Below, one piece after another: positions 1-1,527 of a stretch of DNA of 64,000 bases (position 1 is its first letter; each line of letters opens with the position of its first letter). The position numbers and the translations under genes were made by a program. The stretch spans positions 1-64,000 of the forward strand of contig CAIUPH010000092.1 of assembly GCA_903901015.1 (NCBI GenBank), read 5' to 3'. The notes below the pieces were generated by a model, which saw only the letters and a program-made list of their open reading frames with translations, was not told the DNA's origin and ran no database searches. This DNA comes from Candidatus Bathyarchaeota archaeon. GTDB lineage: Archaea; Thermoproteota; Bathyarchaeia; Bathyarchaeales; Bathycorpusculaceae.

Positions 1-73
1 CTCTAAGATAATGTGGGCATCTTGGATTTTGACATACAACATCAACTTTGCTTCTCGGCCTGCCTTTGGGCAT
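1..73 (-). mobile_element. N-terminal fragment of a probable IS1-type transposase, cut by the window edge
   Basis: The minus strand from 73 reads 24 codons from an ATG, beginning MPKGRPRSK and containing a Cys-x4-Cys zinc-ribbon start, then runs off the window. A basic GRPR start followed by a C-x4-CP ribbon resembles the first ORF of archaeal IS1-family transposases. A TATA-like stretch lies at 108-118 on the same strand. The region between this ATG and about 137 begins GGTAATG, similar to IS1-family termini, and it directly abuts the broken end of the HIT gene. Only 24 residues are visible, so the family call is tentative. Confidence 0.45.
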
Positions 74-132
74 GTAATCACCGAGAACATCAAATAGCAC
101 ACAGAATATAAAAGGTATTCTATATTAGGACA

Positions 133-435
133 TTACCGAAAAATCACTTGACCCGCCGCCCACCCGTTATTCTGCACGATACGAATGCCCTCAGCCGCCA
201 TTGCATCCTTGACTCCGTGGGCAACCCGCTTCGCAACCTTGAACAGATAGGCGGCTTCATCCTCCGAAATCTCATAGATATTCTCATAATGTTTTTTTGG
301 AACAACAAGAGTATGTCCCTCGTTGACTGGGCGGTTACTCAAAAAAGCCACAACTTGCTCATCCTCATAGACTACACTTGCGGGCAATTCTTTACGGATT
401 ATCTGGCAGAACACGCATTCAGACATAGCAGTCAT
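133..435 (-). pseudogene. HIT-family nucleotide hydrolase, truncated before the HIT motif
   Basis: The protein starts near MTAMSECVFCQIIRKE (ATG at 435 or 426) and has the normal HIT-family core: CxxC near the N-terminus, the S-N-R-P-V-N-E-G-H-T-L-V-V-P block and a QNNG-WAAGQ stretch. In intact members GQ-V-x-F is followed at once by the catalytic H-x-H-x-H. Here the frame reads GQVIFR and stops, so the histidine triad is missing. The neighbouring sequence looks like an IS end, so insertion is the simplest cause. The remaining protein should not hydrolyse nucleotides. Its start faces away from the methyltransferase gene at 499. Confidence 0.7.
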
Positions 436-498: not shown

Positions 499-1527
499 AT
501 GGATACTTTAGTCGATGACATAGGCAGTTTTCCGTTGCCACAGGGAATTGGAAGGGAAACCTACAGCAGAGCGTATGAACAGGCAAGAGAAGCAATATTC
601 AAGGGCAAAGACCCCGCAAAAGACGAGTTTACCCAGAAAAACTTCTGCCAAGTAATCGTTGATTCCTTCCGCAAAAAGGTTGCCTCAGGCTTAGACGTAA
701 TAAATTTTCCACAGCACTACAGCGGAATCAAACAGGTCGGCGACGCCATCCACGCAGCTATGGCGAAGGGCTCATTTGTCGTGGACCAAGAGAGAGCGTT
801 TCTCCCAGAAATATACGTCCTAAACCAAGAAGCCAAACATCTCAGTGAAGAATTCGAAAAAAAAATCCAGCTGCGTGTCTCAATTTTTGGTCCAATCGAG
901 CAGTACTTAGCTGAAGTCGGAGCTACGGCTTACCCAGATGTACTGGATGGCTTTGCCCAAACCATAAATCGCTTCGCAAAAAACTCCATCTTAAATAACA
1001 AGTATATCGAAACCAAAGCGGTATCCATCGATGAACCCAGCCTCGGCCACAGCAGCTTCAATGGTACGCCAGAGTTGATCCGTGAAACCCTCGAAAAAGC
1101 CTACGATTTCCAAGGACCAACCAAACAGATTCACCTGCATTTCTCGTCAGGCATCCGAGATTTGCTGAGTTTGAAAGGTCTTGACGTGTTGTCGTTTGAG
1201 TATGCTGCTTCCCCAAAAAACATTGAATCCGTTTCCAAAAGCATGCTTGAAGAAGCCGACAAACAGATTCGCGTTGGCATAGCACGAACAGACATCGACG
1301 CGATTTGGGCTGAACTCTATGAGAAAGGCATCACTAAACCAACATCGGAGCAGGTAGTTGAGCCAGTAGAAATGATAAAGAAACGGTGCGAATTTGCCAA
1401 AGGAAAGTACGGCGAACGAATGACGTTTACGGGTCCTGACTGCGGACTCGGCGGATGGCCCAATCAGGAAACAGCCGCGTTATTGCTGGAGCGTACGGTG
1501 AAAGCGGTAAAATCAATTAAATTCTAA
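499..1527 (+). CDS. MetE-like cobalamin-independent methionine synthase family protein
   Basis: This 342-residue protein is a single MetE C-terminal-type barrel, the size of archaeal core MetE enzymes that use a methylated corrinoid protein or another methyl donor instead of methyl-folate. It opens with the family's D-D-I-G-S-F-P-L-P motif. Zinc-site positions can be followed: H212, E234 (in LSFEYA) and C315 (in GPDCGLGG). The usual HxC pair is HxH here (H212-L-H214), so one of the two thiolate ligands is replaced by histidine. ATG 499 is the only plausible start. It is divergent from the HIT gene and convergent with the slipin gene. Substrate and donor cannot be read from sequence. Confidence 0.75.
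   Translation: MDTLVDDIGSFPLPQGIGRETYSRAYEQAREAIFKGKDPAKDEFTQKNFCQVIVDSFRKKVASGLDVINFPQHYSGIKQVGDAIHAAMAKGSFVVDQERAFLPEIYVLNQEAKHLSEEFEKKIQLRVSIFGPIEQYLAEVGATAYPDVLDGFAQTINRFAKNSILNNKYIETKAVSIDEPSLGHSSFNGTPELIRETLEKAYDFQGPTKQIHLHFSSGIRDLLSLKGLDVLSFEYAASPKNIESVSKSMLEEADKQIRVGIARTDIDAIWAELYEKGITKPTSEQVVEPVEMIKKRCEFAKGKYGERMTFTGPDCGLGGWPNQETAALLLERTVKAVKSIKF

Follow-up and report, generated by a model that had tools for sequence, protein, structure and literature searches.

Elements of the IS1 family carry an insA-insB' arrangement, in which a -1 frameshift takes place before the catalytic domain; ISMhu11 is an IS1 subgroup. ISCaa4 of Amoebophilus is assigned to the IS1 family, relatives are named in Methanosarcinaceae, and frameshifting is reported at AAAAAAG (PMC3196728). 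For the Archaea, established cases of -1 frameshifting are few (PMC8211752). The archaeal genus Bathycorpusculum was described from arthropod guts, with genomes from soil, sediment and digesters as well (PMC10684969).

An IS1-related insertion sequence of Bathycorpusculum has almost certainly been inserted into a gene for a HIT-family protein, splitting the gene between two contigs, C92 and C42, of one genome (G000; 2.05 Mb, 117 contigs, 97% complete). The window, i.e., the whole stretch of DNA that was analysed, consists of bases 1-64000 of C92, counted from the contig start, and the comparison set comprised 32 genomes of the genus, this one included. The features of the window are given in Table 1.

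Table 1. Features at the left end of the window (TIR, terminal inverted repeat; TSD, target-site duplication)
Feature	Position	Strand	Basis
Left end of IS1-related insertion sequence, 137 bp; remainder past contig end	1..137	-	C14 identity; start of HIT homology
Transposase ORF, first 24 codons, with C-x4-C motif, MPKGRPRSKVDVVCQNPRCPHYLR	2..73	-	Translation
A/T-rich CTTTTATATT, candidate archaeal TATA box for the transposase	105..114	-	Judged by eye
TIR GGTAATGTCCTAAT	124..137	-	Same first 14 bases at opposite end, C42
TSD GATTTTTC, 8 bp	138..145	-	Second copy at C42:140-147
HIT-family gene, 5' part, truncated	133..435	-	PF01230, E 2.5e-23; TAA stop 135-133, inside element
HIT starts	in-frame ATG at 435 or 426; mechanical ORF from TTG 489	-	
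Divergent neighbour gene	499..1527	+	Weak PF01717 (cobalamin-independent methionine synthase), E 0.19, below cut-off

The initial annotation had described a HIT frame that is good to GQVIF and then stops without the triad, and this is what was found: the mechanical ORF (489-133, minus strand) is open for 118 codons and ends in NGWAAGQVIF, followed by R and a stop. It scores 83 bits against PF01230, where the curated cut-off is 21.5, and thus belongs to the family; the match extends over positions 1-86 of the 98 in the profile, which leaves the window without the C-terminus, and no H-x-H-x-H triad is present. Within the genus, the homologue closest in DNA sequence (L008:1608-2114) encodes 168 aa, includes FHLHVHVIP, and is adjoined by a homologue of the divergent neighbour gene. 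Among the best HIT-covering matches from relatives (n = 19; loci L008-L026), homology begins at window base 138 in 13, at base 140 in three, and further inside the gene in the remaining three. The element end proposed for bases 1-140 is genuine, and these matches place its boundary at 137/138.

A search of the genome with the L008 HIT protein matched four places, namely the window (82% identity over residues 1-119), C42:138-281 (48% identity over residues 115-162; E 1.8e-9), C39, where another HIT gene lies, and, weakly, C5; no uninterrupted copy of this HIT gene was found by that search. On C42, the C-terminal piece adjoins the other end of this element, and is followed at C42:430-864 by the gene that comes next after HIT in G013 (87% identity to L008). 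Bases 1-139 of C42 finish with TTAGGACATTACC, and GATTTTTC and then ATTTACACCTACACG follow; the coding strand of the window reads GTCAAGTGATTTTTC up to the boundary and GGTAATGTCC beyond it, from which the repeated 8 bp are seen to be GATTTTTC. Three of the four items that had been listed for checking, i.e., the other end of the element, a target-site duplication and the missing HIT C-terminus, were thus located on C42; the remaining one, a DDE ORF, belongs to the element interior, which the bin does not contain for this copy. When the flanks are joined in silico at the duplication, an open HIT frame is restored (containing GQVIFHLHLHVIPMK, with the triad HLHLH) that reads through GQVIFHLHLHVIPMKSDEGFSHGVAYRSAASLREAEELKLDAQKIRNQLIKDT to a stop. 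The gene had been proposed to be cut exactly before its triad; it is indeed cut at the triad, with the precise position inside the first histidine codon of HLHLH.

The left end in the window and the right end on C42 are identical over their first 14 bases, agree at 20 of the first 23, and then diverge, as expected of the two ends of an element. Inverted terminal repeats and an 8-bp duplication, both criteria for an insertion sequence, were accordingly observed at the HIT site. The TIR is the sole window match to GGYARTGTCCTAAT with two or fewer mismatches, and since 0.85 such matches are expected by chance, the terminal motif alone is weak evidence; the proof of the element boundary is the partner contig together with the duplication. 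The same evidence bears on the idea of an assembly chimera, in which the contig end would be a misjoin and HIT would be intact in the organism. All four element ends do lie at contig ends and share 139-141 bp, just as a de Bruijn assembler behaves at repeats, but a misjoin would not produce a flawless 8-bp repeat where element and flank meet (for a given pair, the chance is 1 in 65,536), would not bring the missing C-terminal part of HIT to the matching junction of a second contig, and would leave the absence of an uninterrupted copy from the genome unaccounted for, making a chimera exceedingly improbable. Because the other half was found through the target duplication, the broken HIT gene is real rather than a fault of assembly, and the locus offers a worked case of how part of a gene, found where a contig ends, can be traced to its other half in this way.

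A second insertion of the same element was identified between C14:1-144 and C5:54549-54689, with the 7-bp duplication AAATTTC. Copies of the left and right ends are present at C14:1-137 and C5:54549-54687, respectively; the latter, reversed, is 100% identical to C42:1-139, and window bases 1-141 are 100% identical to C14:1-141, the stretch common to C92 and C14 being exactly 141 bases. As no open frame of at least 60 codons runs across the C14/C5 join, this second insertion appears to be intergenic. C5 ends 141 bases from its element boundary and C42 begins 139 bases before its own, or 141 with GA; these distances would fit an assembly with k = 141, and the 2 bases by which C42 is offset would be consistent with a third copy in which GA opens the right flank. 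The element interior is missing from the bin (0 matches in G000 with PF03400 and 0 with alignment A3), which is why this genome counts among the 20 genus genomes without a match to the element's group.

Identical copies at two loci would permit exchange, and recombination between them (an inversion or deletion) might since have separated the flanks, in which case C92 and C42 would no longer be adjacent. The two pairs of flanks, however, each carry a distinct duplication that matches within the pair (GATTTTTC in C92/C42, AAATTTC in C14/C5), and such rearrangement is considered highly improbable, even if the duplications tell the pairing at first insertion and do not alone exclude a later flank swap. 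Under the favoured explanation of a simple insertion, an IS1-related element would have transposed into HIT in the same transcriptional orientation, duplicating 8 bp and cutting the first histidine codon, and the HIT halves would have been left on C92 and C42. With several identical copies present, the short-read assembler stopped at the element ends, and the window begins inside the element because the assembly broke there. Since C92 passes without a break from HIT across the duplication and on into the element, alleles with an empty site were probably rare in the sample, and the insertion may be near fixation in the sampled population.

Both visible ends of the element align with those of a 1,080-bp element, L106:2219-3298. 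On the left, the start of the window's transposase, which had been predicted as a small C-x4-C ORF on the same strand and was recovered as such (73-2, minus strand), resembles the L106 N-terminus LPKGRPKSQLNIVCQNPKCTHYLKE; on the right, C42 codes for FQFYWNFINEFKRSASPARIEGLTDHVWTWHELFHFHLSILN and a stop, compared with FRFYWNFINEFKRNGSPAKLEGLTDHLWTWHEFFYYKLSILN and a stop in L106. Between them, the two ends code for the N-terminal and C-terminal parts of a transposase, as had been required of the upstream ORF, and the full-length relatives are IS1-related. The element and HIT share one transcriptional orientation. The A/T-rich stretch near the left end may serve the transposase gene as an archaeal TATA box, and TTTTATA or a TTTTTATA-like stretch lies equally far from the terminus in L029, L030, L036 and L106.

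Three whole elements with 8-bp duplications were found in the genus: L106 (duplication TAAGGTTT), L139:1344-2415 (1,072 bp, CGAAATTC) and L140:937-2029 (1,093 bp, TAAGATAA), for a size range of 1,072-1,093 bp. The copy in HIT would have a similar interior and a length of about 1.07-1.09 kb, and DDE chemistry is predicted for it. The transposase of L106 is frame-broken between its two ends; L139 has a single uninterrupted frame of 335 aa. The latter yields E 1.5e-22 against NCBIfam IS1 (NF033558), at 80.5 bits relative to a cut-off of 100, and passes the IS1/IS1595 zinc domain model (NF050000; 28.4 bits, cut-off 28), while PF03400 gives 10.3 bits and no more. The interior missing from the bin, the sub-threshold IS1 score, the low PF03400 score and the 7 bp, rather than 8, of the second duplication count against the favoured explanation. 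Of the original designation "IS1-type", the relatedness is supported, and a canonical two-ORF IS1 is not; the element is IS1-related and falls in a group of 1.07-1.09 kb whose score does not reach the curated IS1 cut-off.

Relatives of this group are present in 12 of the 32 genus genomes, the same element occurring in both G027:C9 and WQYG01000009.1 (Candidatus Bathycorpusculum). Elsewhere, 18 loci were matched, in Euryarchaeota SZUA-158, Argoarchaeum, Ethanoperedens, ANME-1 and Methanophagales, with one short match in a Desulfuromonadales contig included; no relative was found in the viral contigs scanned with A3. L030 (1504-2076), with only 573 bp between its ends, was rejected as a full copy; it possesses both terminal repeats and the transposase start, and probably arose within this group by internal deletion. 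Two-ORF IS1 elements also exist in the genus, where PF03400 matches 14 of the 32 genomes. Examples are L067:1459-2309 (duplication AATATTTC), L070:1412-2215 (CAAAAACC) and L081:1462-2315 (GTCTTTT), which measure 804-854 bp; identity of the window's element with these was rejected, as both of its ends match the 1.08-kb group.

The histidine triad is needed by HIT hydrolases, and since the truncated protein lacks it, loss of HIT function is expected, the product ending in GQVIFR being predicted to be inactive. Retention of function by this protein or by the C-terminal piece is very unlikely: the long ORF does remain open, but the stop comes after a single additional codon and the triad is lost, a second, intact HIT gene on C39 (triad HFHIH) could cover the role, and a further species likewise has a shortened version of the gene split here. 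In that species (G019, L013:1380-2002), it is cut after YLFKIAK by unrelated sequence, which on sequence comparison is a second, independent loss of the same gene. Given the intact C39 gene and the L013 truncation, this HIT gene is probably dispensable in the window's organism. The triad is kept at 18 of 21 relatives' loci (L008-L028), the exceptions being L013 and two loci that matched the neighbour gene only and are uninformative on HIT (L027, L028). The disruption is, in sum, clean yet ordinary biology.

A side observation concerns the reading frame of the group's transposase. Among 15 distinct genus copies with xCDE[ILMFV]W (from loci L133-L162), ten (L133-L137, L140, L141, L146, L147 and L153) continue only with a -1 shift located at an A-run or close to it; the run lies no more than ten codons past DE[IL]W and is A8-G in most of these ten. 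A frame-keeping A9 run is seen in two copies, L139 (intact) and L159 (other stops), an A7 run in two (L138, L154) and A10 in one (L145). L122, from another archaeal lineage, has the -1 phase as well, and L127 has no A-run. L137 (from base 430) retains an upstream frame open for 137 codons and a -1 frame of 176 codons, which a long-dead copy would not be expected to keep. Against a programmed shift, many of the copies show decay at other positions, runs of poly-A are prone to mutation, and L139, the sole wholly intact copy, needs none. A programmed -1 frameshift inside the catalytic region is nevertheless plausible, and we tentatively propose, at somewhat less than even chances, an archaeal IS1-related subgroup in which -1 frameshifting or polymerase slippage at A8-G after DE[IL]W turns on the catalytic core itself. 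The group is thereby a possible further candidate for -1 frameshifting in Archaea. A literature search did not find this subgroup or the frameshift site, and no claim is made that they are unpublished.

Compared with known HinT-like HIT hydrolases, the gene is alike in its PF01230 match and in the rejoined frame with GQVIFHLHLHVIP, and unlike them in being interrupted at the triad by the element; the nearest solved chain is 2eo4_A (E 3.9e-27). With the IS1 family, the element shares terminal repeats starting with GG (here GGTAATG and GGCAGTG), an N-terminal zinc-binding domain and duplications of 7-8 bp; it differs, as gauged on L139, in falling below the NCBIfam IS1 cut-off and in being nearly silent to PF03400. 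The insA-insB' arrangement was not found in the relatives, where the frame change comes after DE[IL]W or, in L139, the frame is single. As at the AAAAAAG site reported for ISCaa4, the transposase of most group relatives changes frame at an A-run and so occupies two frames, although the ISCaa4 protein is given as 226 aa, versus the longer 335 aa of L139 (PMC3196728). In IS1, the shift fuses a complete catalytic domain to one that binds DNA, whereas the proposed shift of the group would switch the core on, from a probable site downstream of DE[IL]W and inside the catalytic region, unlike in both ISCaa4 and IS1. The principle of frameshifting is already known from ISCaa4, and it is only the position in the catalytic region that looks unusual.
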